Virus record (IMG/VR): IMGVR_UViG_3300017598_000787
Span: 1-56,070 of that record
DNA from: a virus
Direction: 5' to 3' (one strand)
Length of the DNA stretch: 56,070 nt
Below are positions 17,528 to 42,339 of this stretch, piece by piece (within the stretch, counting starts at the first letter, position 1; each line of letters starts with the position of its first letter). Made by a program: the position numbers and the translations under genes. Under the pieces are notes generated by a model. The model was not told where the DNA came from. It did no database searches and saw only the letters and a list, made by a program, of their open reading frames with translations.

Positions 17528-17536
17528 GGAAACCCC

Positions 17537-19619: not shown

Positions 19620-19643
19620 CTTTTGCTTTTTTTTCTGACTTTT

Positions 19644-20111: not shown

Positions 20112-20233
20112 TTTACCAATGCTACCAATTGATCAAATACACCGAAATACATAGATGCAATAACAACGACACCGATAACAGCTACGGCAACTTGCCTTGT
20201 CCTTGGGGTTAGCCCATTCCAAAAATCTTTCAT
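20108..20233 (-). CDS. 41-residue membrane protein of the lysis region
   Basis: A short protein starting MKDFWNGLTPRTRQ, followed by a single hydrophobic helix VAVAVIGVVVIASMYFGV (15-32) and a short tail. A GGATGGG site precedes the ATG. Position between the M15 endolysin and the DUF1353 gene and the basic-before-membrane pattern suggest a pinholin- or lysis-accessory-type peptide. The overlap with the next gene is ATGA. Confidence 0.7.
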   Translation of the reverse strand: MKDFWNGLTPRTRQVAVAVIGVVVIASMYFGVFDQLVALVK

Positions 20234-20244
20234 TTTCCCATCCT

Positions 20245-20915: not shown

Positions 20916-20927
20916 TGCAGTCCCTTT

Positions 20928-21446
20928 TTATTGATTAACGGCGGCGATTTCTTCTTTTTCAGCAAGAATGATTTCTTCTTTCTTAATCATTCTCTTTATC
21001 CACTTGGTCCGTACAGAAAATTCACTAAGTTTTATTTTCTTGCTCGCTTTGATTGTTACTCTACGCTTTGCAGGTAATGCCGGACTGACAACAAAGTAAC
21101 CAGTGGTATGAGGCGATCCTTTGCTATTCCATCTGTGAGGCATTAGTTTAGGAACTTCAACATCATCAATTAAAGTAGTTCCTTTAAGTCCCGGATAAGT
21201 AGCGAACAGTTCTTTTTTAGTAAACCCACGAAATCCAGCTAAACCGATATTTTTAACCCCGTCAGTAGTTAGGAGTTCGTCTTTATTACAGGATCTAAGA
21301 CGCTTGAGCAGATATTTGGGAAATAATACATGCAGCACTTTATACCCATTAGCCAGAGTCCCAACCTGCACAGAGCTGATATTGAATTCAGGTGTTACTT
21401 CAGTGATTTCAACATCTTCAACTTTTGCTTTAACAAGGTCTACCAT
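20928..21446 (-). CDS. Hypothetical late protein after the tail fibre
   Basis: A 172-residue mixed alpha/beta protein with a conserved-looking middle (GLAGFRGFTKKELFATYPGL) and a basic C-terminal part (KRRVTIKASKKIKLSEF; WIKRMIKKEE). No domain recognised. It overlaps the tail-fibre stop by seven bases, so a fibre chaperone, baseplate or host-contact role is possible. Confidence 0.65.
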   Translation of the reverse strand: MVDLVKAKVEDVEITEVTPEFNISSVQVGTLANGYKVLHVLFPKYLLKRLRSCNKDELLTTDGVKNIGLAGFRGFTKKELFATYPGLKGTTLIDDVEVPKLMPHRWNSKGSPHTTGYFVVSPALPAKRRVTIKASKKIKLSEFSVRTKWIKRMIKKEEIILAEKEEIAAVNQ

Positions 21447-23791: not shown

Positions 23792-23804
23792 AGATCTCCA
23801 CCCT

Positions 23805-24095
23805 TTACCTATTTCGATGTCTTCGAAGTGGTAAGATTTCGACTGTATCTTCCGTTGACTTTGACTCAGCCCAGAAAAAAGCCGCTCCTTTTCCCAAGGC
23901 TTCATTTAATGATTGGGATGAGTTCGCCTTGACAGTGAAATAAGTTGTAAGCTCCTCCACATTGGATATTTTCATATCAACAGCCCCTCTTGCCTGTATT
24001 GCATAATCTTCACAATCCTGTGCAGCTCCAAGTGAAATTTTTGCTGCCCCTGCTCCGGTTGCGGGTAAGGTTTCATTAATCGGTGCTAAAATCAT
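23805..24095 (-). CDS. Small virion or fibre-associated protein
   Basis: A 96-residue protein with an AAAGGA site before the ATG. The first half is small-residue rich (LPATGAGAAKISLGAAQDCED), the rest beta-like (VDMKISNVEELTTYFTVKA). No named family. It lies between the double terminator at 24118 and the tail fibre and is the first gene of that unit. Confidence 0.65.
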   Translation of the reverse strand: MILAPINETLPATGAGAAKISLGAAQDCEDYAIQARGAVDMKISNVEELTTYFTVKANSSQSLNEALGKGAAFFWAESKSTEDTVEILPLRRHRNR

Positions 24096-24117
24096 TTTTC
24101 AAATCCTTTCAAAATAG

Positions 24118-24169
24118 AAAAGGGGCAATACAATGTTTTAGACACCGTATTGCCCCTTTAGTTTTTTTG
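24118..24169. terminator. Strong bidirectional terminator (copy 1 of a repeated hairpin)
   Basis: AAAGGGGCAATAC pairs with GTATTGCCCCTTT (24147-24159). A T-run (AGTTTTTTTG) follows on the plus strand, and TTTTCTATTTT on the minus strand. It separates the giant gene from the tail-fibre unit and resembles the hairpin at 50588-50632. Confidence 0.85.
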
Positions 24170-24171
24170 TT

Positions 24172-24201
24172 TAGATCCCGGGTTGGCCGACTCGGGATCT
24201 A
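24172..24201. other. Second hairpin beside the terminator
   Basis: TAGATCCCG (24172-24180) and CGGGATCTA (24193-24201) pair perfectly around a GC-rich loop. It lies directly after the terminator, facing the lone rightward gene at 24242. It could be a promoter-proximal operator or the second half of a double terminator. Confidence 0.65.
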
Positions 24202-24241
24202 AGTATTTAGTTATTAAAAGTATATCATATTTTTATTAATA

Positions 24242-24529
24242 GTGTTATCGTTAATCTTAGGGCTCAAACAATTCAGAGGGGATACCATCAATTTAATTTT
24301 AGAAATATTATTCATCGCTATCCTATTCGGTTCGTTCCCTGTCGCATTCATTTTGCATTCTGATGAAGAATACAAAATTCTCGCTTTTGTAATAGTTGCA
24401 ATAGCAGTATATGGATTACTGGGTGCCATTGGGCATATCTGGCCCCTGCTATTCCTTGTTCCTTGTGCCTGGTACTTTGCACTGTCACCTTTGTTTAGTA
24501 AAAAACTCAAGAAGCCCTCCGTAAGATAA
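24242..24529 (+). CDS. Membrane protein on the opposite strand (moron candidate)
   Basis: A 95-residue protein with three hydrophobic segments: LILEILFIAILFGSFPVAFI (about 18-37), ILAFVIVAIAVYGLLGAIG (46-64) and WPLLFLVPCAWYFAL (67-81), then a basic end (KKLKKPS). The start is uncertain: GTG at 24242 lacks a Shine-Dalgarno, while AGAGGGG (24276-24282) precedes an ATC 6 bases later. It is the only rightward gene in the late half, between hairpins and the 3' end of the giant gene. Morons of this type often alter the host envelope or block superinfection. Confidence 0.6.
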   Translation: MLSLILGLKQFRGDTINLILEILFIAILFGSFPVAFILHSDEEYKILAFVIVAIAVYGLLGAIGHIWPLLFLVPCAWYFALSPLFSKKLKKPSVR

Positions 24530-27500
24530 CCTTTTTATTGAATGCCCGTTTTAACTTTTCTATCCGTTTTTTAATTTTCTCTTTTCCTTTTTCGGTTTTT
24601 GCCCGTTTTAAAAGGGTGTTCAGTTTTTTTATTCTCGATTCATATTTTTTCGCAGATGTATAAAGCGTGTACACTTTATTCTTGCGTAATTTCTTTTTCT
24701 TTGCCGGATACTCTTTTGCCTGTTCATGCAATCTATATATATAGGTTATGTTAGATCTATAATCAGTTGTGACTTTATATTCTGATTGAGAGCCCAAAAC
24801 TCTTCTAAGCCCAGGTATTTTTGAAGTCTTTAGATCCCCGGACAACGCCCTGATTGGCAGGGAAACTGTATCCGATAGGAATCGTCCGGCCCCGCCTGTA
24901 AAAGTGTCCCAGACTAAATCAAGCGTTTCGGGAGACACATCAACCATGCCGGGTTTTACTTTATTTCCACCGCTGATTGTATTCGCAGCTTTGGCCAGCA
25001 TCTTAGATGTTGGTCTGACAGATCCCCAGTATTTTTCAGAGTCTGGTTCTGGTGTTCGTGAAAACGGGTTGCCCTCTGGCATTAATGGAGAACCAAAAAA
25101 TGTTTTGTTTTCACCAACCTGGACAAACGGATCTCCGACGGTTGGCGATAAAGTTTGCAGGACAGTAGCAGATTGCAACGGGTTAAATGCATCCAGGGCA
25201 GTTGCTAACATTCGGCTTGCACCATCCAGTGGGCTATAATCATCTTTTATCGCAAGATCACCAATCTCAGTACCTAACGCCCAGAATACATTATATCCCC
25301 AGGGCAATGGTATTTTAGCATACTTACCCTTAGTCCCGGGTATCATAAAGATCATGTTTCTTGCTTTCAGGTAATCGTCAACCTGATCATAGTATGGTAT
25401 ATCGTCTTCATCATCGCCGCCCAGTGACCTATTCGCAATGGCCAATATGGTTGCCAGCCCCATGGTGCCACCCAAAATTTTAGCCATTTTCTTAGGGTTA
25501 TTTTTAATCGTTTTAAAAATCCGGGTTGATCCCTGGATGCCTGCATTTGCAAAAAGGTAAAGACTATTTATGACAGGGCCGTAAGCACCTTTCTGGTTAA
25601 AGTTTACAGTCAAACCCTTTGCCATGATTGCGGCCTTTGCCTCTGACATACCAGAATCAATACCGGCCTTAAATGTGGACAGCCTGACCGCATTTTCAAC
25701 AATCGAGTTATAGTCCTCGACAAGCTCAACCAATTTAGCGGCCGCTTTTTTGGTCTTATGTCCTTCCCGGAATAAATCTATCTGGCTTTCAAGTTTCGCG
25801 GCCTTTGTTTCAATATCCTTACCGTAATCGATCCAGCCTATCTTTGCCCCGGATGATTCGTATCGCTTGACTATACTCACCCACTCATGGGAGCCGTCAC
25901 CCTGCATGGAACTGTAAAGACCCTTCATAGCTTTTGGGACATTCTTAAATATCGTTTTCCTCATGTTCGATACTTCTGTATCGGTCAAATTAAAAGCAGC
26001 GGTTTGAAGGTCACGCGCAAGGTTAGAGAAAATAAATTCAGGGTTCCATGTGGTGTTTACTGCGGCAAGTCTTCGGTTTAATTTACCCAAAGCATTTACA
26101 ATCGGACCTGAATTGTGATCATTCCCCTGGATAATATCAAGTATCCGCATGGCATGTATATTGTTTGGACTGGCTGAGACTATATAAACCTTACCATCAG
26201 TTTTAACTTTTATCTTTGGTTCGTCCTTACCAATAAAAAACGCTGGCCTTCTTTCGATATTACCTGACCCGTCATATGTAGCGACTGTTTTGGGTTCTTC
26301 AAAACTCAGGAAGTCTTTGTTCGGGTTCATTTTTATGAACTTGATAAAAGCCGATGCGACCTCTGCTTTTTTGGCATTTATGATTTTTTTCTCATGATTC
26401 ACAAAACCATTCGCCAGAAGATGGACCGCTCTTTTTGTGGACCCGCCCCTGGGATTTACATCAGAACCTAAATTTGTGACACCACCCCCGATACCTTTAA
26501 AAGCGCGTTTCTTTTCATACCCTTCCCTGAACAGTGGAGCATAATAATCGAAAGTACCCTTGATAGCATTATATTCTTCATCTGACAGTCGGCCTGCATC
26601 ATGGGATATTTCAAGACCTTCAGCGTTCATTGCGTCGTACAGCTTTGCAATTTTAGCCATGGTTTTGTTGTCTTTCCACTTGTCAGAAATCTCTTTGGCT
26701 TCATTGTCTCTTGGGTCAATGTGGCCGTCAGTCATGCCTGAAGGTTTCGCGCTAAAAGTTTCCCATTTGTCTCTGACATCGAATTCTCTATCGATCTTAT
26801 CAACTATCTTTTTATGATATGCTATCGATTTTTCAGCTTTTTCAATCTGGCTTTCAGATAGTGGAGAATCAAGCTTTGATTCAGCCCTCATTAATTTTTG
26901 GTTGGCAGCTGCAAAGGTTTCTTCAATTGTACCCAATTCAGATTCTAGGAGGTCTAAATAACTCTCCTGAATCTCATTGGTTGGGAATTGCATCAACTCA
27001 AAATCAGCGTCCATTTCTGCAATCTTATTTTTGAGGCTGTCCCCTCTTTGTGCATCTGCCAGCTTTCTCAGGTAATGCCGCGCATTGGTCAACCTTAACC
27101 TGGCATTGGCCTCTGGTGCATGACGGGCATAAAGGAACTCGTCAACCAACTCCACGGTTAGTTTCCCAAGGCCAATAAGTTGCTTGATTGGCTTGAAATA
27201 TTTTTCTTCTGCTTTATCGATATCACCCTTGGCTTTACTGACTCTTAATTGTTCCTTTAATCTAAAGTCTGCGGCTTCTGGGATATCCTTTTTAATTGCT
27301 TTGTAAAGCTTTGATACCGGACTAAGCTCATCAACAATATTATGCTTGAAATCTTCAACAAAGCTTGAATTGTCCTCTATTGAAAAACCATCGTGTCCAA
27401 GATCTTCGGAGGTTTGATACCTGATATCAGGGTTGTTTTTATCCCATGTGCCTTTGTTGTGGATGGATTTTATTTGGGCGTTATTCGCTGCATCTGGACG

Positions 27501-30500
27501 TACAATTATCCATTTGTCTTCTCCTGATAAATATTCTTTAGCAGACTCGTCTACACTTAACCCTTTGAAGATGTCATTTTTATTTATTATCTTAAAATTT
27601 TCCCTCACGACATCTGGGAGTTCATCTGCTCTTTCTTTTTCCATCCATTGATGGAAAATATGATCTACCATTTCTAAATGTTTCTGTTGCTTAATAGATG
27701 CTTTTTCATACGCCTTTTGCATCACTTTTATATTTTTATCGTAAGCTTCTTTGTATAATATCTTAGCTGATGGAGACTTGTCAGACCAGACCACTATGAC
27801 ACCATCATGACCACCATTATCCAATACAGAGATAAGGCTATCTACATCTTTTGTTTTTCCCTCAACAAATTTAGAAAACTTTTTACCAGAAATAACATAA
27901 GGGTTGTCGAGCCTGATGTGCGCATCTATAATCCCAGCACCTTCAACAATCTCTCCATCTAAAATACTATCATGAAGAAATTCGTCATATTCATCTTCTT
28001 GATTCAGATTTTCTACATCGTAACCTGTCGCATATTCAGATGCAATATACCGATCTGTTGTGAAATAATGCCCGATTCTATTATTTTCAGCACTCCCGTA
28101 TATCCCACTTCCGGTCATTTCTGCACTAAACTTGTTTAAACCACCTGCTGAAAAACTTCCATGAGATGCTTTTAATAAAACCGGTTCTCCTGTTTTATAT
28201 TTGCCATTATCTTTAAGCCCTTTACTCCATTTTTTAAATGCCTTGGTTGCTGTGTTCTTGACTGTTTGGAAGGAGGAGGTACTACTTTGCACACCTGCGC
28301 CCGGTGTGCTGGATGGTTTAGGGGATAGAAATTTATCTCTTGTTTTTTTAGATGCACCAGTGAGGATGATGTTTATATCTTTATTGTCGCCAATACTACC
28401 AGAATAAAGCGTTATTGGGTTATCTTCTTTCCATATTTTTCCACTGTCGCTTGATGAACCAAAAGACCAAGAAGCATATGAATCTTTTTCTAAATTAGTT
28501 ATAATATCGCTTAATGTTGAACCATATTTTCCAGCATCTAGATCAAAACCTGCAACACCGTCATGGTCAACGTGAACCCATTCTTTGGTATGTGGGTCTT
28601 TTCTGACTTCTCCTAGCTTTTCACCACCTTCCCCAAAAAAATGATATAAATCTTCGTGAATTTCTTCAAATTTTAAACTTTGCCCGAAATCTTGTTGAAC
28701 TGCACCCTCAGGGGAATTGTCTGCTCTCTCCCCCATAAATCCAGACCAACCCCTTTCTAAATCATCGCTTATCCTATCTGAAAAACGAATGTGAATTTGG
28801 CCGTCCTCTATAGGGATGTCTTTTATTTTCTTGAATTTCACTCCACCAGCGGGCGTAACGGGGTTTGATTCAGTGGATATGTTGCCCTTCCCCTTTTTAT
28901 CTGTCACTGAAAACTTGCTACCACTATTCGGCTTAGTTTTCAAGCCATTTCCACGATTAATAGCCTCACTCATAGCATGAGCAATAGCACCTTGAGCCTT
29001 ATCAATATCAACCACATACTGTTCCGCTCTGGTTATAAATGATTTGATTTTAGCCACAACTTTTTTAATTGCGCTGAATAACTTCTGAGACATTGAAGGA
29101 GATTTTTGATTTAACTTTGACCAGAATTCAGGACGTTGAAAGCTATCCCCTGCAAAATCGCCTATAAATTCCTCAAGCAAATCCGCTTCTGATAATTTGG
29201 GCAGGTTCGCAAGTTCACGATTGGTTTGTTCTGTAGCAGCGTAAAGGAAATAATCTTTTTTATTATTTTCAAATTCGCTAACAAGATAATCGTAAAGGTC
29301 AGGGTGATTGTTCTTTATCTGGTGGGTTACTTCATGACCGAGTATACCAATTTCTGGAACACCGGATGAAAGATTGATAAATAATTGATCTGTGCCGGGG
29401 TAGGTAAATCCTGTTATATTGGTATCTGGATCAGAGGTTTTAAAGAATACTGTTTTTAATCCGAGTGCTTTTCCAAGTTTGTTAAGGGTTTTTTGTTTTC
29501 GGTTGGCAGGGATTGTGATTTTTGCTTTTGAGGCATCCCCGATGTTTTCAATCGCTGCATAAAGTCTTTGTCTTGTAATGCTTCCGGTTTTAGATAATAC
29601 CTTATCCCGTTTACTTTTACGCAGGGCATCTTTCTTATCCTTCTTTGATTGAAATAGGGCTTTTAGTTTTTCTTTGCCTGATAGTTTAGCATTTTCCCCA
29701 GTTTTGTCAATTGACTTGCCTTGGAATAAGGGCATGCCTTCTTTCAGGGATTTGGATTTCATTTCTTTGGTTATTTCTAAAGCATGTAGAGTTTCAAGCT
29801 CCCCTTTTTCTTTAGCAATTTTCCTTGTCAAATCATCTAATTCTGCATAATCTGAGTCTTCATATGCCTCATTTGTAAAAACATCAATCTCCCCGACCCG
29901 AGACTTACCCCATGCTTTTTTATTGAAGAATTTATTTACTTCGGCGGGTAGGATCTTGTCATAGAAGGCAAGCATTCCTTCGCCGCCTACTTTGAGATCG
30001 ATACCTGACAAAGATCTCTCCCCATGGCGTTTTTTGTCACCTTCACTATTCTGCATTTTTTGAACAATTTCTTTACCAACAACATCTTCAGCTTCTTCAA
30101 AAGTCATTAGTTCATCGAAAGAGTTTATGCGTTCCCCGTCAATAGTTTGAATATCCATTCTAACTTTACCGGGTCCCGGGGTGAAATATAAAATTTCCTC
30201 TATGTGCTTACTCAAATCATACCGATCAGCCTGTTCTGTACCTTGAGTCCAAGCAATAGTATCAAACCCGTTCTCCGCTGCGTATCTGACCATCCGTTTA
30301 AAAGCGAGCATGGGCCATGTTTTTTTGAATGGGGCGTTGGGTGTAGATTGTGAAATGTTATAGTCATTTACATTTTTAAGAGCATCTTTTACTGCTTCAT
30401 TCTCACTCCTACCCCTACCTATAATGACATCACCGGCAGAATCTATCAAACTTCTACTACCCCGTGAATATTTGCCTGGGCCTTTAACAAACCATTTTTT

Positions 30501-33500
30501 AGTCTTTCTAACTGGATTTATAAACTCGTCTGAGAATGTCCCTGGTTTGACTTTGTTTGCCCATTCAACAAATAGTATTGGGTCCCCTACATTTTCAGTA
30601 TTTGGATCTTTATCAAAATAATCTTGAACAGCATCATCAAGTTTTTCTATCTTTTTTTGCTCGGATTCTGACAATCCGTCATACACTTTACTCAACCCAT
30701 CAATTACAGTGTCATAGTGTTTTTTGAAGTTATTACGGATTGTCTTGGCATTAATCGCCATATTTTTTGAATAGACACGGGTATCTTTTGGTAGTTCAGC
30801 TAATGGTCCTGACGCATACCCTTTCTCCCTACCTCTTTGGTGCCAGTCACTTTGGATTTCCTCAACATGCAGGACTTTTTTACCATCAATCTCACGCTCT
30901 GACATTCGGACATGGGCTAATACATTTGGTTCGTCCCAATGGGGGGATTTGTAATCTTGTTTTAATTTTTCTGCTCTTTTACTTGCTTCTGATATGCTAT
31001 TAAAGCCTGTGAGTTTTTTTAATCCGGATTTAGATGGCAACGTCAGTAAAATCTCTTTGTATTTTTTGCCTCCGGGGAGTTGGTAGTCTGAGAATTTTGT
31101 TTGTTCTTCCGGGGTTCTTATTTCTAAATTTAAGCTTTCGGCAATTTCGTCTGCATAACCTTCATGGACTACTTCTCCAAGGTTACCATCTTTATCTTCT
31201 TCAATTATGTAACTATACCCTTCTGGCCCTCTATCATCAAAATAAAGACCGTCTCCAAGTTCATCGTTAACGTATAGTGATATTTCTTCATGTGCTAAAG
31301 ATCTTTCACTCAAATTTTCACCCTTAACAACTTCCTCAACCTGAACCTGATTCTGATCAAGATAATCAAGAGCTTCTTGTTTTGTGACCTTACCTTTTTT
31401 AGAATCAAGCCATTCATTCAATCCAGACCATTCAAGTTCTTCTTTCTTGAACATGCCCTTTTTAGCCCATGAATTAACTTGAGATTTCATCATTTTTGCA
31501 GGGGCATTATTGAGTTTTTTACTAAGGGTTTCCCGCATTTTGGAATACCACGGGGAATGGTTTTCAGGGGATTGGTTCAAGGTTTGGTATTGAGGTCTTG
31601 TCCCATCTTTTCGATATAAAGTCAAAGCCCCAACAGAAGAACCAGATGTAAATGTATCAAGATGGGCGTTGATCGCGTGATACATCTTGACAACAGCATC
31701 TTTTACCTTTTTGTATGCGCTACCAAGTTTACCAGCAACTTTTCCTGAAAAATCTTTAAGGGACATCCCTGCTTTGTAAATACCTGTAACAAGATCTTCA
31801 AGAATATATGCCCTACCGTCTTCTGATGTTACCTTGGTATTTGTCTTCCCTATTGCTTCCCGGATTGTTGTCTTCTCACCCCGACCATCCCCAGACGCAT
31901 CCTCAAACTCCTTCGCTAACCCTGGTATATCTCCCTTAACCGTCGCGCCCATGTCTTTCATGCGTTGGGTTACACGCGATGCCAAATCGTTGTCAAACTC
32001 TATATTCTTGGCATAAATCCAAACGGTTTTGGGTTTCCCAACAACCCCATATCGGGCTGATCTACCGGAAACCTGGGCAACACCGCTTGCTTTCCATGGG
32101 AGATTTAAATTTATTTGGGTTGTAGGATGATCACCGACTGTGTCATGAAGACTGAGCCCAGTGCCGCCTTTTGCCATAGTTGCAACCAAAACCTTTTTGT
32201 TCCCCTTACGCCATTGTGATAAGTTCTTATGAGCCTTGATATCACTAACCGCGCCAGTGTATATAGCTACATTTTCTTCACCGAATGCTTCAACAATTTT
32301 TGATTGTGTTGGTTCTAAGGTAAGGACATCAAACCCTGCATCTTGGATTGCCTTCGCTGCGTTATATGTTACTTTGCTATATGGAGGTTTTTTATCTCGC
32401 AAATCCCGTGGTGTTTGTTCCCACATATCATATGCTGTAATAATACTGTCCGTATCAATCCGCCGTTCAGCTTTAGTTTCAACAAAAATAATTGGGTTTC
32501 GGCCTTCCTTTATTGCAGATTTAGCAGCGGCGATAGCCTGGTCAAGTTTACTTGCCTCAAGTATCCGTTTTCTAAGGTTCACACCATAAGCTGCCAATTG
32601 CCCCTTTTGTTTACCAGGGAGATTATCCATCGCATAATCAAAAGCATTTGTTATGCTGGTATACATACTCACATAATCAGCATCAACCGAGACTTTACTT
32701 ACTTTGACTTCTGATGTTTTAGGATCAAGTTGCATGTCTCGCTGAGTCATCACACCTTTATCTATAAGCCAGTTCCTTGCATCAATAGCGTTTTGTTCAG
32801 AACCCTGACCAGGCCAAACCAAAAACTTGTTGTTTCTGAACTGGCTGGTGTATGCACCATGGTCAATTGCCCAGTCCCAATGACCACTAAAAAAAATATT
32901 TGTCGGTTCAAGGTATGCGGCCTCAACTGGGTTTTCAAATGGTGTGGCTGAAGCAAATATTGAAAATTTTGACTGTTCAATGAAAAGGTTTGCTCTTTTC
33001 CCGACAGCGGATTTCACATTTTTAATATTTTGACTCTCATCAAAAATCAATGCGTCATACGATGCTGGAGTCGTTTTGCGTAGTTTCGCGTATGTGATGA
33101 ATTCAACATTTTTTATATCAAATGCGGAAAGATCTTTCTTGAGTTGGTTGACCAATCCATTATTCATCGTCACATAGAGTATCTTTTTTGCACCATTGCG
33201 CTGCAATTCCTGCATAGCACCACCAAGTACAAATGACTTTCCTGTACCAGCCTCATTCGCAAGGAGAAAAATGCCGGTCTTTTCATTATGCGCTTTTACT
33301 ATCCTTGCAATATCATCGACTTGTTCGTTTAAAACTTTTTGGGGAATTCCGAATTCTTTCCCTTTGTTGATCGCAGCTATTGTGTCTGTTTGGACATACC
33401 TTTCAGGATCATCAAGAGTTCCCATTTTGTGGGTTCCCTTTTTTCTAACAGATCCGGCCACCCCGGGTGATCGTCCATCCAGATTTTCATCACTTGTTCC

Positions 33501-36500
33501 TCGATCTCCGGGTGTTTTTTCACTATCTGGTTGTAATATTCCATGTTTATCTCTGAGTGCCTTGGCGATATTTTTTGTTGGGTCATGATCAAACCTCCAT
33601 TGTTTTTGTTTCCACCTTGCACCAACCCCTTTTAACAAATCTTTATTTTCAAAGGTTCCTTTTCCAGACCCTTTGTCGTACCATTTTTTTTTCTGAGAAA
33701 CACCCCATGTAAGTCCATCCTGTTCTACAAACAGACCGAAATCAGAAAGGATTTTAACATCGCCATCATCTGTCTTATCATCTGTTTTGTCTGAGGCCGT
33801 GTCAACCTCTTTAATGTCCTTGCCATCTGTCATACCAGAGGCATCAAACCCAGGATAATATCTTGCTGCCTCATACCATGATCTAAGATATGGTTTAACG
33901 ACATCACCGATATCCTTTATCATTGCCTTGGAATATGCAGTAAAACTTCTGGCACCTGATTCAATATGATAGCCAGCGATCTGAATGCCAGCCTGGACAA
34001 TCTCAGGATCAAGGCCGGAATTTAACTGATTCCCTGACAGTTTCTGTCTGAGGATTTCCCTGGCTTTATCTGCGGCCTCTTTAGTGAAGACCTTGTTGTT
34101 AGATCCGTAATCACTTGAGAATTTTTCTGTTTTCTTTGGGGATTTTTTAATTGTCCTTTTTTTACTATCACGCTTATCAAGAGTCTTTTGAATTTTCCCT
34201 TTCAGGGATATTGACTCTTCCCAAAAATCTGAAGGAGATTTAAACCCAGCCTCTTCCATTTGCCTTATAGACTGGTCAACGGTCACAGCACCGCTTTCTG
34301 GCATAAGACGCAGTAAATTTTCTTCAAATCCCTCTGCTGATTCATGCTCCCATGCTGATTTTGCCAACCATTTTAGATGGATAGGAATTTTTGTTTTTGG
34401 GTTCGGGTAGTTGTATTCCTTTTTAGGAGTGGATTCAGATTTTTGTTCTTCCGTAGCTTCTGTGAATCCATTCTTTTGAGCATAATCAGCAAGAGCGGTT
34501 TCCGCCTCTTCTTTGGTATCATACCAATATCTTTGGTCTGTTTTCCCCCTGATATTCCTTCCACGTTTCTTTAAGTCATCTGTCTTAAAGAAGGTATATC
34601 CACCGTCTTTCTGCCATCCTTTTTGAACATGGACAAGTTTTCCTGATTGTGGGTCGTGGTAAATTTTAGGTTCACCGGTGGTTTGTTCAGTGGATATGTC
34701 GCCCTTCCCCTTTTTATCTGTCACTGTTTCTGGAATAACAGAATCTTGATTTTCTAACAACACTTTATCAGCGTTTTGTCTTATCTGGATGTTTTTAACA
34801 GGGTGCCATTGATCTTTATACTTGAATTCCCAATTGCCGACCTTAACACCGTTATAACTATTCTCACCACTGACCCTGCGATATTGTTTTCCGTCTATCT
34901 CTACCTCACCCTTCTCCACCACTTGCTCTTGAGGTATTTCTTCAAGTTCTGCTTTAACATCTTCAAGGGAAACTGTTTCTTCTCCGCTTGCCTCAAATTC
35001 CTCTTGGGCTTTCTGAGCATCTTGTATGTCTTCTATGTCTTCTTGGGTTGGATTGTCTTCAATATTTAAGCTTTCCTGAGTACCATCAACAGCACTATCG
35101 GGTAATGTCTCTGTATCGGGTTGTTTTGCCCCTTCAACGGTCTGGCTCAAAATCCCAGGCTCTGGACCTTTTTTAATAGCCTCAACGTCAATCTGTTCAA
35201 AAACATCAACAGTTTTAGTCACACCATCTTTTAGTACAACATCACCAAATGGTGTATCAGCTTCTTGGACCGTAAATTCGTCTTTAACACCATCGACAGT
35301 AGCAATAATTTTATCGCCTATATCCAGATCGCCGGCTGGGATCTTTTGTGATCCTAATAAATCAAATCCTTTTTTCTCAAGGTCGTCAGCTTCTTCTTGC
35401 GCTACAAATTCTCCTGTTTCGCCTGCATTTTCATTCGCTGCTTTTTCGATATGCCTGTATAAGTCTTCCTGGTTAGGATTTAATTTTTTCCCGCTTTTAA
35501 TGTTATTAAATACAGCATTTAGTTGTACTCTTGAATAGACTCTTTTTTTACCGTTTTTATCTAAATAAGTAGGCAGATCCTGCATCCATTTTGGTGAATT
35601 CGCACCATACGGAATTGTTTCATACTGTTCACCATGTTCTTGAGTAACACCTTTAGTTTCAGTGGTATTTACTTCGTTTTGCATGGTATCTAATTTTTGT
35701 GAAAAAAGAGCTGACTCCTGGTCTATTTTTTGCTGCTGTTTCTTATACTCATCTTGATTTGTTTCAGGCACATCAACTTTACGGGCTTGCCACTTATCTA
35801 TTAGTTCAATTTTTGTCGGCTGGCCATAATGTGCATTCCATTCATCTTCTGTTGTGGTTGTTTCAGGCACTTCAATAGGTGGTCCTAAAATCCCCTGTTC
35901 TTTTTTCATATCAGATATTAAGCCACCAACGTATTCAGATTCTGTCATTGGCGGTAAATCTTCGGTCAACTCTGCAGCATTCTGGAATGGATCAGATGGA
36001 GTATCACCCACATCAAGATCTAATGGTAATTCCCCTGGCATCGTGTAGCCTGGAGTGGATACCTTGCCCAGGATGCCATCTATTTGCTTGTTGGCCTCGT
36101 CTATGGCATCATCCGCGGTCTTGGCTTTTAAAATCCCGGTTGCAGTACCGGCGACAGCACCACCGCCAGCACCCAAGGAAGTTAAGACAACAGTTTGGGG
36201 TGCAACCTCTTTAAAAGATTCAAGCATATCACCCGGAGAAGTAAAGGACCGCTTATCACCATCTGACAACCCGGCTTCAATTTCAGTATTGTGCTGCCCG
36301 GTCTGGGTTATGGTTTCGGTTCCAAGCTCTGTACCGTACATTCCCGCTATTGCACCAAAAATCTTTGTACCAATGGTTTTCCCCAGTGCGGCCTTGAAGA
36401 TGGCCCCGATCCCGGTCATTTGTGCAACATTACCGATTGATTCCGGTATGGCTTCCCACAAACCATGTTTGTTAATTAATGGTTGAGATTGTTCAACAAA

Positions 36501-37148
36501 GGCATCAATTTCTTCGGGTGTTGCATCAGGGTTTACATTCTGCCGATAGGCCCCTATCAGTTGCCGTGTAAACATGGTCCTGTCCATATTGTATGCGGCT
36601 TTACCCGATCCTGCCAAGGCAAGTGGTACACCGGCAATCGGAGTCGCATAGGAACTAGCTAAGATACCAGGGAGTCCTGCTCCCATAGCAGTAAGAGAAA
36701 ACCCGGTACTTGCCCCGGCATCCCTGATTGCCTGACGTTTTATGCCTGGAACAACATACTCATCACCACCGGGCTCAGAAGACCGCTCAAGATTCCTTTC
36801 TTCCTGGGCTTCAATGGCCTTATCTTTCCAGTCGTATTCCTGTTCCGGGTTTTTATCTTCTAATAATGCAGCGATTGACGCCTTTGTATTAATAGGGACA
36901 TCATACAAGAGCTTGCCGACATCCTTAACACCACCCAAGAAATTGTATTTTTTCTCTGGTTCCGGACCTGGCCCCCGATCAGGCATCTTGACCCGCCTTG
37001 AATCAAAGAAATAGTCAATGATTTCGGCTGATGTAGCACCATCGGCTGTGGCCGTATCATAATCAAAACCAAGCTTGCCAGACAAGAACCTTGCAATCTC
37101 GTCCTGACTCCCGACTTCCAAGGCACCTAAGTAATCAAATTCAAACAT
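24507..37148 (-). CDS. Giant polyvalent (ejected) protein, 4,213 residues
   Basis: This gene takes 22% of the genome. Visible regions, in order: hydrophobic ejection-like segments (about 165-215, 250-345); acidic low-complexity linker; domain with LNSGLDPEIVQAGIQIAGYH (about 1020-1105); WKQKQWRF domain (about 1140-1185); SF2 helicase (about 1245-1740; NEAGTGKS near 1298, IFDESQN near 1370, SATPFENP, QVSGRSARYG near 1690); EIQSDWHQ and GGEGMLAFYD domain (about 2070-2400); zincin HEVTH at 2605 with LLEEFIGDF; ADP-ribosyltransferase-like part (HGSFSAGG near 2995, DIRYQ near 3240); LPD38-type region (about 3500-4130); basic coiled tail. Polyvalent proteins are carried in the virion and ejected with the DNA to protect it from host defences. 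Confidence 0.88.
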   Translation of the reverse strand: MFEFDYLGALEVGSQDEIARFLSGKLGFDYDTATADGATSAEIIDYFFDSRRVKMPDRGPGPEPEKKYNFLGGVKDVGKLLYDVPINTKASIAALLEDKNPEQEYDWKDKAIEAQEERNLERSSEPGGDEYVVPGIKRQAIRDAGASTGFSLTAMGAGLPGILASSYATPIAGVPLALAGSGKAAYNMDRTMFTRQLIGAYRQNVNPDATPEEIDAFVEQSQPLINKHGLWEAIPESIGNVAQMTGIGAIFKAALGKTIGTKIFGAIAGMYGTELGTETITQTGQHNTEIEAGLSDGDKRSFTSPGDMLESFKEVAPQTVVLTSLGAGGGAVAGTATGILKAKTADDAIDEANKQIDGILGKVSTPGYTMPGELPLDLDVGDTPSDPFQNAAELTEDLPPMTESEYVGGLISDMKKEQGILGPPIEVPETTTTEDEWNAHYGQPTKIELIDKWQARKVDVPETNQDEYKKQQQKIDQESALFSQKLDTMQNEVNTTETKGVTQEHGEQYETIPYGANSPKWMQDLPTYLDKNGKKRVYSRVQLNAVFNNIKSGKKLNPNQEDLYRHIEKAANENAGETGEFVAQEEADDLEKKGFDLLGSQKIPAGDLDIGDKIIATVDGVKDEFTVQEADTPFGDVVLKDGVTKTVDVFEQIDVEAIKKGPEPGILSQTVEGAKQPDTETLPDSAVDGTQESLNIEDNPTQEDIEDIQDAQKAQEEFEASGEETVSLEDVKAELEEIPQEQVVEKGEVEIDGKQYRRVSGENSYNGVKVGNWEFKYKDQWHPVKNIQIRQNADKVLLENQDSVIPETVTDKKGKGDISTEQTTGEPKIYHDPQSGKLVHVQKGWQKDGGYTFFKTDDLKKRGRNIRGKTDQRYWYDTKEEAETALADYAQKNGFTEATEEQKSESTPKKEYNYPNPKTKIPIHLKWLAKSAWEHESAEGFEENLLRLMPESGAVTVDQSIRQMEEAGFKSPSDFWEESISLKGKIQKTLDKRDSKKRTIKKSPKKTEKFSSDYGSNNKVFTKEAADKAREILRQKLSGNQLNSGLDPEIVQAGIQIAGYHIESGARSFTAYSKAMIKDIGDVVKPYLRSWYEAARYYPGFDASGMTDGKDIKEVDTASDKTDDKTDDGDVKILSDFGLFVEQDGLTWGVSQKKKWYDKGSGKGTFENKDLLKGVGARWKQKQWRFDHDPTKNIAKALRDKHGILQPDSEKTPGDRGTSDENLDGRSPGVAGSVRKKGTHKMGTLDDPERYVQTDTIAAINKGKEFGIPQKVLNEQVDDIARIVKAHNEKTGIFLLANEAGTGKSFVLGGAMQELQRNGAKKILYVTMNNGLVNQLKKDLSAFDIKNVEFITYAKLRKTTPASYDALIFDESQNIKNVKSAVGKRANLFIEQSKFSIFASATPFENPVEAAYLEPTNIFFSGHWDWAIDHGAYTSQFRNNKFLVWPGQGSEQNAIDARNWLIDKGVMTQRDMQLDPKTSEVKVSKVSVDADYVSMYTSITNAFDYAMDNLPGKQKGQLAAYGVNLRKRILEASKLDQAIAAAKSAIKEGRNPIIFVETKAERRIDTDSIITAYDMWEQTPRDLRDKKPPYSKVTYNAAKAIQDAGFDVLTLEPTQSKIVEAFGEENVAIYTGAVSDIKAHKNLSQWRKGNKKVLVATMAKGGTGLSLHDTVGDHPTTQINLNLPWKASGVAQVSGRSARYGVVGKPKTVWIYAKNIEFDNDLASRVTQRMKDMGATVKGDIPGLAKEFEDASGDGRGEKTTIREAIGKTNTKVTSEDGRAYILEDLVTGIYKAGMSLKDFSGKVAGKLGSAYKKVKDAVVKMYHAINAHLDTFTSGSSVGALTLYRKDGTRPQYQTLNQSPENHSPWYSKMRETLSKKLNNAPAKMMKSQVNSWAKKGMFKKEELEWSGLNEWLDSKKGKVTKQEALDYLDQNQVQVEEVVKGENLSERSLAHEEISLYVNDELGDGLYFDDRGPEGYSYIIEEDKDGNLGEVVHEGYADEIAESLNLEIRTPEEQTKFSDYQLPGGKKYKEILLTLPSKSGLKKLTGFNSISEASKRAEKLKQDYKSPHWDEPNVLAHVRMSEREIDGKKVLHVEEIQSDWHQRGREKGYASGPLAELPKDTRVYSKNMAINAKTIRNNFKKHYDTVIDGLSKVYDGLSESEQKKIEKLDDAVQDYFDKDPNTENVGDPILFVEWANKVKPGTFSDEFINPVRKTKKWFVKGPGKYSRGSRSLIDSAGDVIIGRGRSENEAVKDALKNVNDYNISQSTPNAPFKKTWPMLAFKRMVRYAAENGFDTIAWTQGTEQADRYDLSKHIEEILYFTPGPGKVRMDIQTIDGERINSFDELMTFEEAEDVVGKEIVQKMQNSEGDKKRHGERSLSGIDLKVGGEGMLAFYDKILPAEVNKFFNKKAWGKSRVGEIDVFTNEAYEDSDYAELDDLTRKIAKEKGELETLHALEITKEMKSKSLKEGMPLFQGKSIDKTGENAKLSGKEKLKALFQSKKDKKDALRKSKRDKVLSKTGSITRQRLYAAIENIGDASKAKITIPANRKQKTLNKLGKALGLKTVFFKTSDPDTNITGFTYPGTDQLFINLSSGVPEIGILGHEVTHQIKNNHPDLYDYLVSEFENNKKDYFLYAATEQTNRELANLPKLSEADLLEEFIGDFAGDSFQRPEFWSKLNQKSPSMSQKLFSAIKKVVAKIKSFITRAEQYVVDIDKAQGAIAHAMSEAINRGNGLKTKPNSGSKFSVTDKKGKGNISTESNPVTPAGGVKFKKIKDIPIEDGQIHIRFSDRISDDLERGWSGFMGERADNSPEGAVQQDFGQSLKFEEIHEDLYHFFGEGGEKLGEVRKDPHTKEWVHVDHDGVAGFDLDAGKYGSTLSDIITNLEKDSYASWSFGSSSDSGKIWKEDNPITLYSGSIGDNKDINIILTGASKKTRDKFLSPKPSSTPGAGVQSSTSSFQTVKNTATKAFKKWSKGLKDNGKYKTGEPVLLKASHGSFSAGGLNKFSAEMTGSGIYGSAENNRIGHYFTTDRYIASEYATGYDVENLNQEDEYDEFLHDSILDGEIVEGAGIIDAHIRLDNPYVISGKKFSKFVEGKTKDVDSLISVLDNGGHDGVIVVWSDKSPSAKILYKEAYDKNIKVMQKAYEKASIKQQKHLEMVDHIFHQWMEKERADELPDVVRENFKIINKNDIFKGLSVDESAKEYLSGEDKWIIVRPDAANNAQIKSIHNKGTWDKNNPDIRYQTSEDLGHDGFSIEDNSSFVEDFKHNIVDELSPVSKLYKAIKKDIPEAADFRLKEQLRVSKAKGDIDKAEEKYFKPIKQLIGLGKLTVELVDEFLYARHAPEANARLRLTNARHYLRKLADAQRGDSLKNKIAEMDADFELMQFPTNEIQESYLDLLESELGTIEETFAAANQKLMRAESKLDSPLSESQIEKAEKSIAYHKKIVDKIDREFDVRDKWETFSAKPSGMTDGHIDPRDNEAKEISDKWKDNKTMAKIAKLYDAMNAEGLEISHDAGRLSDEEYNAIKGTFDYYAPLFREGYEKKRAFKGIGGGVTNLGSDVNPRGGSTKRAVHLLANGFVNHEKKIINAKKAEVASAFIKFIKMNPNKDFLSFEEPKTVATYDGSGNIERRPAFFIGKDEPKIKVKTDGKVYIVSASPNNIHAMRILDIIQGNDHNSGPIVNALGKLNRRLAAVNTTWNPEFIFSNLARDLQTAAFNLTDTEVSNMRKTIFKNVPKAMKGLYSSMQGDGSHEWVSIVKRYESSGAKIGWIDYGKDIETKAAKLESQIDLFREGHKTKKAAAKLVELVEDYNSIVENAVRLSTFKAGIDSGMSEAKAAIMAKGLTVNFNQKGAYGPVINSLYLFANAGIQGSTRIFKTIKNNPKKMAKILGGTMGLATILAIANRSLGGDDEDDIPYYDQVDDYLKARNMIFMIPGTKGKYAKIPLPWGYNVFWALGTEIGDLAIKDDYSPLDGASRMLATALDAFNPLQSATVLQTLSPTVGDPFVQVGENKTFFGSPLMPEGNPFSRTPEPDSEKYWGSVRPTSKMLAKAANTISGGNKVKPGMVDVSPETLDLVWDTFTGGAGRFLSDTVSLPIRALSGDLKTSKIPGLRRVLGSQSEYKVTTDYRSNITYIYRLHEQAKEYPAKKKKLRKNKVYTLYTSAKKYESRIKKLNTLLKRAKTEKGKEKIKKRIEKLKRAFNKKVILRRAS
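28869..28909 (-). repeat. 41-bp repeat, copy 2, in the giant gene
   Basis: Identical to 34686-34726 except for one base (C/T). It encodes VTDKKGKGNISTES (residues 2748-2761) at the border between the zincin domain and the next module. Together the two copies bracket residues 809-2748. Confidence 0.93.
34686..34726 (-). repeat. 41-bp repeat, copy 1, in the giant gene
   Basis: Encodes VTDKKGKGDISTEQ at residues 809-822, at the end of the acidic linker. Forty of 41 bases match 28869-28909 in the same orientation, 5.8 kb apart. Confidence 0.93.
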
Positions 37149-38374
37149 TATTTTCTTCTCTCAAGCATGTTAATAATCTCAGCATCAGTCATCTCCGAGT
37201 ATTCTTTACGCAGAATTTCCGCTATGTTTTTACGTTTTCTCAACTCAAGGGATGACCCCATTTGACGTAATACAGCCGTGATTTTGTCTTCACCTGTTTT
37301 AACCATTCCGTCTGGTTGTGAACTATAAAGTTTTTCTTGAACATTGGACTTGATGGTAGATAACAGACTCGGTGCCTTATCCTTGTTAGAATATTTAGAA
37401 CCATATTCAACTTTATCTAACTTTTCCCTGACTGCTTTGGGCAGAAAGTACAATTCATCTTTTTTGGGTTCTTCTACTTTAACTTTCTTATTTTTTGGAT
37501 TTAATATTGGTTCTTTGATTTTGCTCGTATCCTTGAAATAATCTTCAAGACCACTCTTATCTCCCCCTTTAGGTGGTGGTGCTACCAACCCTTTAGGTGA
37601 ATATTTTCTTGCCTCTATATTAAAGTCATTAATTGCCGCAAGATCTGATATGGCGTCTTTGTTACCAGCATCGGCTTGTTGTTTTAACGCAATCATTGCG
37701 GGGATAAGTTCACCCGTTTCCTTGTCTGTGTACCCTTCATAATTAGACAGAATATATAATGCTTTACGAGAAATAATAGTCCATTCTTTTGTCCGGGTAT
37801 CAACACTATTCTCACCCTTTCTTCGCTGATAAGTTTTTTCTTCTTTTGCCACCCGACGATCATGAGTGGTTTGTTCGTCACCCTTTCTGCGCTGGTAGAG
37901 TTTTTCTTCCCTGTCTATTTCTGCGGCCTTTTCTTTTTTGGCGGCGGCTATCCTACGTTGATAAGTAATCTCATCCTCACCTATTCGACGTTTATATGTA
38001 ATCTCATCATTTTTGTATTCTTCTGCTATCCTACGTTGATAAGTGATTTCATCCTCACCCTTCCTGCGCTGATAAGTTTTTTCTTCCTTGACGATATCGG
38101 CGGCTTTTTCTTCATCAGCCACCTTTTTTCTACGGTTGTATTTATCAGTTTCTACTTTTTCGAGACGATCATTTTCAGATTTTTTAAATTTTTGGCTGTC
38201 ATCTTGCAATGCCATATTATTCGTATGACGCAATTCCTCAAGCCGGATCTGCCTTTTTTCCAGGGCATCAGCTTTTTGTTTATCCCGCTTGTCTGTAATA
38301 CGGTCCTCGATATTGGCTTGCCAGCCTTGACCGGCCCCCTTAACAAAACCTAAAAGCGCTTTGCCTAAACTCAT
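37148..38374 (-). CDS. Ejection-module protein with YQRR repeats
   Basis: A 408-residue, highly charged, probably fully helical protein. From about 95 to 205 it carries repeated EEKTYQRR, EITYQRRI, EITYKRRI and KLYQRR units. A start overlapping the next gene as TAATG couples it to the giant protein. Charged coiled-coil proteins here resemble internal virion proteins of podophages that form a channel or sheath for the DNA. The C-terminal third (LPKAVREKLDKVEYG; EMTDAEIINML) is unrelated to the repeats. Exact role not known. Confidence 0.65.
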   Translation of the reverse strand: MSLGKALLGFVKGAGQGWQANIEDRITDKRDKQKADALEKRQIRLEELRHTNNMALQDDSQKFKKSENDRLEKVETDKYNRRKKVADEEKAADIVKEEKTYQRRKGEDEITYQRRIAEEYKNDEITYKRRIGEDEITYQRRIAAAKKEKAAEIDREEKLYQRRKGDEQTTHDRRVAKEEKTYQRRKGENSVDTRTKEWTIISRKALYILSNYEGYTDKETGELIPAMIALKQQADAGNKDAISDLAAINDFNIEARKYSPKGLVAPPPKGGDKSGLEDYFKDTSKIKEPILNPKNKKVKVEEPKKDELYFLPKAVREKLDKVEYGSKYSNKDKAPSLLSTIKSNVQEKLYSSQPDGMVKTGEDKITAVLRQMGSSLELRKRKNIAEILRKEYSEMTDAEIINMLERRK

Positions 38375-38967
38375 GCGGCACCCCCTTGAGCAAGTATTCC
38401 CCCTGGTTGTTCAGGCGGGATCGGCTGTTCCGGTGAAGGTGCTGGGCCCTGTCCACCCTGTTCCTGCATAGTCTGGACAATCTGCTGACCCTCTGGGGTT
38501 TGTTGGGCCTGTTCAGACATCTGGACCAGTTGATCTTTTGACATATTCCCAGATTCAACAGATGAATTTATAAATATTGCTGTTGCTCTCTGAAAAGCTT
38601 CATTCTTCTGTTCATCAGTTAGCTTCTGCATCCCGGCTGCTTCTGCCATGGTAATTATCTCACCCAGAACAGCATTCCCACCATGGACAAGGACTTCATT
38701 TGATATTTGGAGGCCTTCACCCTCTGCTGAGTCTGCAAGGCGCATCGTGATATCAACGGTTGCCTCTGCAATTGCTTCAAGGCGATTCTCATTGTGAAGT
38801 ATCCTTGTCAAAATCCCCTCTGATACAGTTTTATCATGAACAACATTGATCGCATTGATTACAAATAAATCAAACTGTTCCTGCATTTCAGGCGGGACTT
38901 GAGTCTCTTGCCCTGGCTGATCCATTGGCATCTGCTCCATTGGCGGGGCTTGCTGATTCGGGTTCAT
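38371..38967 (-). CDS. Internal virion protein with Gln/Pro-rich ends
   Basis: A 198-residue protein: a Pro/Gln/Met-rich N-terminus, a helical core (LFVINAINVVHDKTVSEGIL; EAIAEATVDITMRLADSAEG) and a Gln/Pro/Gly-rich tail. The core pattern is common in podophages next to ejection proteins. It overlaps its neighbours by four and one bases. Function inferred only from position. Confidence 0.65.
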   Translation of the reverse strand: MNPNQQAPPMEQMPMDQPGQETQVPPEMQEQFDLFVINAINVVHDKTVSEGILTRILHNENRLEAIAEATVDITMRLADSAEGEGLQISNEVLVHGGNAVLGEIITMAEAAGMQKLTDEQKNEAFQRATAIFINSSVESGNMSKDQLVQMSEQAQQTPEGQQIVQTMQEQGGQGPAPSPEQPIPPEQPGGILAQGGAA

Positions 38968-39728
38968 TATGCGGTCCCTCCTGCTGCTAATAGTCCGGGA
39001 TTTGATGCTTTGGGGCTAACCAATTTATATGAGTTTTCCCAGAAATCAGGTATTTTGATGTTTGACGTTGCCTGTGAATATGTTGGTATACCTTCCTCGA
39101 CATACGGAGCGGTTCTGTTAAGTTCTTGTAATTTTTTTGCATACTCTGAGTTGGTTTCAGGTTCTTTTTCCAGCAACGCCCCTGCAGCGCCTGTCACACC
39201 ACCGGCAAGTATTCTGGATGTTCCATCGCTCATACCGCCTTCACCAAATACTGAGCTGAAGACACCCGGTTTTTTAACAGGTGGTGCTTCCGCTGGAATT
39301 GGAGTTGATCCACCACCGCCACCGCCGCCCCCACCGCCCCCACCGCCACCGGTTGCGGGTATTATTGGTGTTGCTGCCTCAATTGGGGCTGTAGCTCCTG
39401 CATTTAACGGACCTTGAACAGTCTCAACAAATGGCGGTCCGCTCGTTGGTGCGCCCAACCCCACACCCATATCGGCCAATTGTGCCGACGCGCTGCTCAT
39501 TCCTGTGGCTATTTGCAAGCCACTCATCACCCCCCCGGCAAGCCCACCAAAAAGCGCCCCTTTCAGCGCCCCCTGTAGAATATCACCGCCTGTAATGGCA
39601 GATGTAGCGGCACCGATTAAGGCACCATACACCGCCCCGACAACGGCCTTAGTTACAACAGCACCGATTACACCTGTGCCGACTATACCTGTCACAAAAC
39701 TTGCGATAGGAGCTACTATCATTGGCAT
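38967..39728 (-). CDS. Glycine-zipper ejection protein with 14-Gly linker
   Basis: A 253-residue protein. Residues 1-75 are hydrophobic and glycine/alanine-rich (SFVTGIVGTGVIGAVVTKAVVG; LFGGLAGGVMSGLQIATG), like membrane-inserting ejection proteins. A run of 14 glycines near 125-139 links this to a soluble half, ending LLAAGGTA. It lies with the other ejection-type genes before the giant protein and would help form the trans-envelope channel. Confidence 0.7.
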   Translation of the reverse strand: MPMIVAPIASFVTGIVGTGVIGAVVTKAVVGAVYGALIGAATSAITGGDILQGALKGALFGGLAGGVMSGLQIATGMSSASAQLADMGVGLGAPTSGPPFVETVQGPLNAGATAPIEAATPIIPATGGGGGGGGGGGGGGSTPIPAEAPPVKKPGVFSSVFGEGGMSDGTSRILAGGVTGAAGALLEKEPETNSEYAKKLQELNRTAPYVEEGIPTYSQATSNIKIPDFWENSYKLVSPKASNPGLLAAGGTA

Positions 39729-40171
39729 GGCACATCTCCTTTATTTAAACAAAATATAAGTTGGTCATGGAGTTTCCAGCGTTTCAGGAATGATTTTGTG
39801 ATCATCCCTTCTTGCTTAAACCCCAAGTCTTTTACTAATTTTATTACCCGGTCATTATATCCCGGGATAATTCCCACTACCTTTTGGTAGAGAGTATTTT
39901 TAAACCCCCACTTCATGACATCTTTTGCAAATTGATGACCTCTTCCCCACATTTCAGGCCTGGTGGCAATATGGACCGAACAGGTAACACTATTCATTGG
40001 GTCAAGCCGTATTACGCCCGTGTGATCCTCATCTATTAAATAAACTATCTGAGGATGAATCACGGTTTGATAATCTTGAGGGGAATTATCATCCGTCAAC
40101 CAGTCCCGGACCTCTGGATGGGTTAAAATCCCATCTATAATATGTGCGTCGTAGCATCGCTTTATGTCCAT
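39719..40171 (-). CDS. GNAT-like virion-region protein (DUF2824-type)
   Basis: A 150-residue protein with GNAT-fold features: beta strands IVYLIDEDHTGVIRLDPM, an acyl-CoA-binding-loop-like RPEMWGRGHQFAKD (91-104), and VKDLGFKQEGM. A similar GNAT-like protein is common next to ejection proteins in P22-related phages. Whether it acetylates anything is unknown. It overlaps both neighbours by 10 bases. Confidence 0.75.
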   Translation of the reverse strand: MDIKRCYDAHIIDGILTHPEVRDWLTDDNSPQDYQTVIHPQIVYLIDEDHTGVIRLDPMNSVTCSVHIATRPEMWGRGHQFAKDVMKWGFKNTLYQKVVGIIPGYNDRVIKLVKDLGFKQEGMITKSFLKRWKLHDQLIFCLNKGDVPCQ

Positions 40172-41409: not shown

Positions 41410-42339
41410 TTATCTCTGCAACAAATTTATGTGCATGTGTGTGTGGTGGTTCCAATGGACACCCTCATCAAAGGTCGAAATAACCCGAAGTTCGTTTAAT
41501 TGTGTTTGAGTGATATGTTTGCCGATAAAATCAAAAACTTTTTCATGAACGATGAATTGAGTTTGATGGCTATGGAACGCTACTTTAAGCCGTGTTAAAA
41601 GCTGCCAGATTACCCACCAGTTGACTTTATCCTCGTCCAGAATCATGTTTGCTGGATCAGTACTTAACCACATCTGTTCGACTGGGCTTCCATACTGTGT
41701 CGCACCCCCGGAATATAAAGGATAATCAATATCAACTTCTGTCAATTTGTTATGTGTCGGATGTCCTGGGCATTCCCCATACTTTGGACAGGCGTCCCCC
41801 AGGATCAAAGGTTTCATCAAAGGATTGTCTTTCATCAAACTTTTGATGACGTTTTCAAACGGCCCTATTAAAAAATTCAAGAGGAATGGACAATCACCGT
41901 TTCCGGCATATTCATAGAAATGAGCGTCCAAGATGCTTGGCACCCATATATCTTTAGGTAGAAATGATATCCCCTCTGCCCTGCCATATCGTTCATAATG
42001 GATAAGTGGCGTCATGCCATATCGTGCCAGGACAGACCTTAAATTGCCTTCATGCCAGCAATAGGCAGGAACACCAGAATGAGTTTCTCCAATCGAATTG
42101 AGCTGGTTCTTTTTGTTTGTCAGATAAATGTATTCGTCCCAATCCTGATACGGGGATACATTCTCTTTCATGCCAAACTTTTGATAGTGCTGTCTGGGGG
42201 TTATGTTCCATTCACTGATCACTTCCAAAAACTCTTTTGCTGTCCATGGGCCCTGGTATTTTTTTAGAAACGTCTGGCCTTTTTCATTCAGCCAATCAGC
42301 TTTATTTTGTGAATATGTTGGGGTGTGAAAAGCTACCAT
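41410..42339 (-). CDS. Virion murein endopeptidase with HYxxFG repeats
   Basis: A 309-residue protein. The N-terminus has the same HYQKFGMKENVSPYQDW and HYERYGRAEGIS repeats as its neighbour. The C-terminal half resembles a LAS-type (MepA/M74-like) metallopeptidase: LGDACPKYGEC (about 181-191), HPTHNKLTEVDIDYP (about 194-208; metal-binding His and Asp) and VHWNHHTHMHINL (about 292-304). It is likely carried in the virion to open the murein layer during DNA entry, distinct from the lysis enzyme at 20245. Confidence 0.75.
   Translation of the reverse strand: MVAFHTPTYSQNKADWLNEKGQTFLKKYQGPWTAKEFLEVISEWNITPRQHYQKFGMKENVSPYQDWDEYIYLTNKKNQLNSIGETHSGVPAYCWHEGNLRSVLARYGMTPLIHYERYGRAEGISFLPKDIWVPSILDAHFYEYAGNGDCPFLLNFLIGPFENVIKSLMKDNPLMKPLILGDACPKYGECPGHPTHNKLTEVDIDYPLYSGGATQYGSPVEQMWLSTDPANMILDEDKVNWWVIWQLLTRLKVAFHSHQTQFIVHEKVFDFIGKHITQTQLNELRVISTFDEGVHWNHHTHMHINLLQR

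Follow-up and report, generated by a model that had tools for sequence, protein, structure and literature searches.

Phage polyvalent proteins are sited among virion genes and often contain zincins proposed to process them (PMC5512222), and those of the DarB class are defined by an SF2 helicase fused to an adenine methylase (PMC5512222). The DarB protein of phage P1, whose helicase belongs to the SWI2/SNF2 group (PMC5512222), is virion-borne, is believed to enter the cell (PMC9024508), and uses a methylase-helicase dyad in guarding P1 DNA from type I restriction. Considerably larger relatives have been described, such as JC1 gp69 (4,515 residues, 22.1% of the genome, 51 unique peptides by mass spectrometry of purified virions), which unites a lytic transglycosylase, methylase, HepA helicase, LPD3 and LPD38 (PMC9144972), and Erwinia phage Pavtok gp27 (5,007 residues), cited in 2021 as a putative ejection protein and as the longest one known from any phage (PMC8402733). 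Here we analyse a window of 56,070 nt from a short-tailed phage, positions 1 to 56,070 of the IMG/VR virus record IMGVR_UViG_3300017598_000787, in which a single gene at 24507-37148 encodes a giant protein of 4,213 residues that carries the helicase of this class, yet appears to have lost its methylase.

The helicase/translocase of the giant is of the SNF2/strawberry-notch type, and motifs I, II, III, V and VI are all intact (GTGKS at residue 1301, DESQ at 1370, SATP at 1400, GGTGLSL at 1661 and QVSGRSAR at 1692). It matches the Pfam models ResIII (1.9e-6), Helicase_C_4, the strawberry notch C-terminus (2.7e-7), and AAA_34 (3.1e-5), and a first-pass annotation made from the sequence was thus correct in calling it complete. 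Each of the 13 relatives that share this helicase type has an NPP[FY] motif 657-720 residues after Walker A, yet the giant contains no such motif and is matched by no methylase hidden Markov model (HMM). The relatives were collected via a conserved helical module, not via the methylase, and the methylase profiles were built from that same sample; they match 83 of the 90 module proteins, while the remaining seven hold no complete helicase signature in the open reading frame (ORF) concerned, several being short, split or cut off. Only one of 69 proteins combines the module and a helicase signature with no methylase, namely this giant, and the dyad that defines the DarB class is consequently broken: a SWI2/SNF2-type SF2 helicase is present, but the fused adenine methylase (NPPF/Y) is absent. 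As judged from sequence comparison, loss of the methylase with retention of the helicase would be new relative to known giants. This is the actual oddity of the protein, and it went unnoticed in the first-pass annotation. The features that bear on it are as follows.

24507..37148, minus strand: giant polyvalent protein, 4,213 residues (ORF call, ATG/TAATG overlap)
33819..34109, minus strand: conserved helical module of DarB-like giants, residues 1014-1110 (52% identity to BcepIL02 over 117 aligned residues)
31914..33329, minus strand: SF2 helicase/translocase of SNF2/strawberry-notch type, residues 1274-1745 (five motifs intact)
29721..31553, minus strand: EIQSDW...GGEGM domain, unnamed and possibly GNAT-like, residues 1866-2476 (motif, alignment and model)

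One of the closest known systems is L141, an IMG/VR giant of 4,892 residues that shares the order module, helicase, EIQSDW domain, (HExxH), C-terminal region and LPD38. In L141, as in L209 and L145, which possess the same helicase type as the giant, an NPPF methylase motif lies 683-720 residues after Walker A. The spacing between helicase and EIQSDW is about 470 residues in L141 and about 105 in the giant, where the EIQSDW domain occupies the place expected for the methylase. Such a contracted interval, in a protein without the enzyme that accompanies this helicase in all 13 relatives, could reflect a decaying DarB relative from which the methylase was deleted and the remainder kept as a structural or ejection protein alone. 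We regard this as unlikely, given that the 4,213-codon frame is still open, the helicase motifs are intact, and the key residues of the HExxH, ADP-ribosyltransferase (ART) and EIQSDW parts are retained.

A deletion or collapse during assembly would also produce an apparent loss, and the sequence does derive from a single metagenome-derived virus record; moreover, neither a whole-protein pattern scan nor a helicase-slice scan of viral contigs recovered a close relative of the giant or its helicase. However, the reading frame continues through the join, and a 15-bp direct terminal repeat (AACAGAATCCCAGTC at 1-15 and 56056-56070) is present at both ends of the contig, as in a circular assembly, so that the record is probably complete; an artefact is accordingly improbable. 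Just as improbable, in our opinion, is protection by methylation after all, through an enzyme acting in trans. The phage does encode a stand-alone C5-cytosine methyltransferase-like protein (14927-15568, plus strand; SPPC motif, DNMT2-type match in PDB at E 1e-4), but this enzyme is of the C5 type, its gene is not part of the block of virion genes, and it would act on DNA that is yet to be packaged. Furthermore, no plausible gene of the window contains the amino-methylase motif [NDS]PP[YFW], and the sole match of the methylase HMMs to window genes is the C5 enzyme, weakly.

The giant is encoded by a single intact ORF with an ATG start and no internal stops, amounting to 12,642 of 56,070 nt (22.5% of the contig), in agreement with the length and the 22% share first reported; the coordinates also stood, but had been given without a strand, which is minus. 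The plus strand over 24507-37148 is full of stops and offers no competing reading frame. The start codon of the gene shares 1 nt with the stop codon of its upstream neighbour (TAATG). The giant gene is the final member of a tightly overlapping block that starts at 41400, and the terminase, portal, major capsid and tail genes lie on the same strand. About 350 nt downstream of its stop there is a strong terminator-like hairpin (24119-24159, minus strand). Elsewhere in the window, the replication region holds a second SNF2-type helicase (8031-9395, minus strand; PHROG 62, E 2.4e-133), weakly similar to that of the giant, and a protein at 2784-3566 (minus strand) has matches to endonuclease VII and Lar-like restriction alleviation families. 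Two consecutive, overlapping integrase-like ORFs (17691-18770 and 18709-19398, both plus strand) point to a possible temperate phage with a frameshifted or duplicated integrase.

The EIQSDW domain (EIQSDW at residue 2097, GGEGM at residue 2388), recognised by eye in the first-pass annotation, is conserved. A single degenerate pattern retrieved it from at least 120 viral loci, and a genome scan confirmed 127 loci in Proteobacteria, Bacteroidota, Verrucomicrobia and other metagenome-assembled genomes, yet none of 61 members matches a relevant Pfam model, GNAT models included, and we found no mention of the motif string in the literature searched. A widespread domain lacking any family-database model appears to be new. 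Among others, residues E183, H221, R232, E248, Q250, S251, D252, W253, Q255 and Y547 (slice numbering) are invariant, a pattern that resembles that of an enzyme. In the structure model the core is confident (293 residues with a predicted local distance difference test, pLDDT, above 90) and its elements follow the order beta-alpha-alpha-beta-beta-[insertion]-alpha-beta-alpha-beta-beta, resembling GNAT. GNATs also make up the majority of the best-scoring PDB matches and, in BFVD, the earliest named hits that are not homologues, at insignificant E values (0.19 or worse); a PDB sequence search was empty, and hhalign against a phage GNAT profile gave no signal, performing no better than controls. 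We therefore treat the possibly GNAT-like fold as a lead from modelling. A tentative hypothesis, which we consider doubtful as a whole, is that EIQSDW domains are enzymes of a family not recognised so far, perhaps acyltransferases in which a GNAT fold is interrupted by a long insertion. Phages would commonly carry the domain in their virions as an effector, and here it would have replaced the methylase beside the SNF2 translocase, giving an entry package free of methylation.

The remaining parts of the giant, from the N-terminus onwards, comprise the following.

35856..36956, minus strand: Gly/Ala-rich N-terminal domain, probable ejection/membrane domain, residues 65-431 (31-32% identity to L162/L143)
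34676..34726, minus strand: linker copy 1, TVTDKKGKGDISTE, residues 808-824 (51-nt direct repeat)
28944..29501, minus strand: HEVTH...E putative zincin metallopeptidase, residues 2550-2735 (motif conservation)
28859..28909, minus strand: linker copy 2, SVTDKKGKGNISTE, residues 2747-2763 (51-nt direct repeat)
28269..28856, minus strand: uncharacterised cassette, residues 2765-2960 (58% identity to the L142 cassette, which lies after ART there)
27444..28238, minus strand: ADP-ribosyltransferase of the ART-PolyVal family, residues 2971-3235 (family alignment)
25392..27377, minus strand: conserved C-terminal region before LPD38, phrog_14770 / phrog_616, residues 3258-3919 (profile matches)
24822..25391, minus strand: LPD38 (E=2.5e-41)

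The N-terminal domain is 31% identical to L162 (E 1e-27) and 32% identical to L143 (E 9e-27); it is fused in L143, whereas upstream of the giant in L162 it forms a gene of its own (863 residues), an arrangement that favours a separable role in ejection. Canonical transmembrane segments were considered and rejected, as the best 19-residue hydropathy (1.37, residues 162-180) falls below the usual threshold; the ejection-like hydrophobic segments originally proposed are thus upheld as a Gly/Ala-rich N-terminus, but not as membrane-spanning segments. Few stretches of DarB-like giants are as conserved as the helical module, with up to 56% identity to phages of distant hosts; it was found in 90 ORFs of the fetched loci, and tblastn matches at 40-56% identity fall in phages annotated "DarB-like antirestriction". 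No Pfam model covers residues 1014-1110. By its position the module may correspond to LPD36 of Iyer et al., but we did not see the GXGU motif described for that domain. The two linker copies are 90% identical, encode TDKKGKG[DN]ISTE, and the second directly precedes the cassette at residue 2765. We considered a general processing site for this repeat and rejected it, since no other IMG/VR contig encodes the peptide; the repeat has the look of a local duplication, perhaps a trace of recent cassette movement.

The HEVTH motif lies at residue 2605, and HExxH together with a downstream third-ligand glutamate is invariant in eight sequences (H76, E77, H80 and E131 of the slice). No Pfam model matches this region. 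The ART motifs H-G, F-[ST] and the C-terminal Q-[IV]-K-S block are present as SHG, YFTT and AQIKS, and all 19 aligned sequences match ART-PolyVal (best 3.6e-26). LPD38 ends about 108 residues ahead of the C-terminus of the giant. Profile searches of the whole protein and of slices recovered the helicase and LPD38. The domains first called, including the ADP-ribosyltransferase-like and LPD38-type parts, were well chosen for a reading by eye. The single ORF, set among virion genes, unites a helicase, an ART, an HExxH motif and LPD38, and its description as a polyvalent protein (sensu PMC5512222), a single chain from a phage or conjugative element that combines several unrelated enzymatic domains, was sound.

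To place the giant among its relatives, we compared annotated phage giants and 80 more fetched by an IMG/VR profile scan with the module, which is common to annotated DarB-like giants of Burkholderia, Erwinia, Klebsiella, Agrobacterium, Bacteroides and other phages. Whole giant genes of 4,369-5,553 residues occur in SopranoGao, BcepIL02, Y7, Atu_ph08, USP_25, Mwe-JY07, Pavtok and BKO1-TP3, and among 62 complete module-bearing giants the median length is 4,667 residues, 41 being at least as long as the one described here. Given these figures, and the comparable JC1 gp69, neither the combination nor the size or genome share is out of the ordinary, and the unusual completeness that had been suggested is not supported. 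The giant of Sinorhizobium phage PBC5 (L134) is annotated as two ORFs, 9094-15651 and 16308-24857, divided between the module and the methylase part, either because the gene is genuinely split or because of a frameshift in sequencing.

Across about 90 relatives the ends of these proteins are constant and the domains of the middle are exchanged. The distance from the end of LPD38 to the C-terminus is 93-118 residues in 20 of the 22 complete giants, and all 15 of the cassette or helicase matches lie between the module and the C-terminal region. The EIQSDW domain precedes the zincin here and in L138, whereas the zincin comes first in L137 and L067; about ten ORFs have ART immediately ahead of EIQSDW; and the cassette at residues 2765-2960 precedes ART here but follows it in L142. 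Also among the closest described systems are the Lessievirus DarB-like proteins BcepIL02 gp70 (4,667 residues) and JC1 gp69, which share with the giant its size, a genome share of about 22%, the helical module, an SNF2/HepA-type helicase, the C-terminal region with LPD38, an upstream GNAT gene and virion-associated genes. JC1 gp69 differs in its N-terminal lytic transglycosylase, LPD3, and an adenine methylase before the helicase; the giant has neither methylase nor transglycosylase (no match to the latter in the whole protein or slices), but possesses the EIQSDW domain and ART. Pavtok gp27 is alike in class and neighbourhood, yet has an annotated methylase, helicase and lytic transglycosylase, and the EIQSDW domain was not found in it. 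P1 DarB is about half the size (250 kDa).

Upstream of the giant lie the following genes.

37148..38374, minus strand: 408-residue coiled-coil-like protein with repeated (D)EITYQRRI/EKTYQRRK units (position matches virion proteins JC1 gp68 / BcepIL02 gp69)
38371..38967, minus strand: 198-residue protein (50% identity to its L142 counterpart)
38967..39728, minus strand: 253-residue glycine-zipper protein, probable ejection protein (weak family match)
39719..40171, minus strand: GNAT acetyltransferase (family match; homologue near the giant in relatives)
41410..42339, minus strand: putative virion murein peptidase (metal-ligand-like HHTHMH motif)

A family search with the 408-residue protein gave no match. 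In 19 relatives a homologue of the GNAT gene is found upstream of the giant in the same orientation, at a distance of 2.3-4.8 kb (2.6 kb here), and the shared size, place and neighbourhood indicate that the giant belongs to a known class. The nearby virion murein peptidase claimed previously does carry HHTHMH, although family and PDB searches with it returned nothing.

We consider it probable (roughly 0.72) that the giant is a polyvalent protein of the DarB class, a late-gene product that is carried in the virion and enters the cell by injection together with the DNA, as suggested by analogy with its relatives. Under this reading, it would be synthesised late and packed alongside the neighbouring small ejection proteins; with its Gly/Ala-rich N-terminal part acting as an ejection domain, it would pass the tail and the periplasm/envelope unfolded, together with the DNA. 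The metallopeptidase may then cleave the protein at disordered linkers into separate enzymes, whereupon the SNF2-type translocase would remain on the incoming DNA, while ART, and perhaps the EIQSDW domain, would modify host proteins. As the giant has no methylase of its own, in contrast to P1 DarB and to every helicase-bearing relative sampled, any antirestriction would operate via translocation, occlusion or effector action.

While the ORF, domains, synteny, cassette exchange and missing methylase can be read directly in the DNA, we infer packaging, injection, self-cleavage and targets, and virion residence follows by analogy with JC1 and P1 (PMC9144972, PMC9024508). Several observations weigh against this reading. 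The AlphaFold model of the HExxH region has a middling pLDDT of 73 and its best PDB match, ZMPSTE24, is insignificant (E 0.36), so that "zincin" rests on motif and context: the conserved motif first noted holds, whereas the fold is not confirmed. Taken alone, the giant scores 17.9 against ART-PolyVal (PF18760; E 0.0057), below the cut-off of 31.2. The packaging signal of P1 DarB is N-terminal, within the first 30 residues (PMC9024508), whereas packaging of the N4 virion RNA polymerase needs the C-terminus (PMC5512222), so that a role of LPD38 in packaging is no more than a possibility. Finally, we found no experiment in the literature showing that podovirus giants of this class block restriction.

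Many podoviruses devote between a fifth and a quarter of the genome to a DarB-like giant. A natural member that keeps the helicase and lacks the methylase would offer a ready-made test of whether a translocase can protect incoming DNA without methylation. In addition, the EIQSDW domain, given its abundance in viral and bacterial genomes and the lack of a family model, may mark a widespread class of probable injected effectors.

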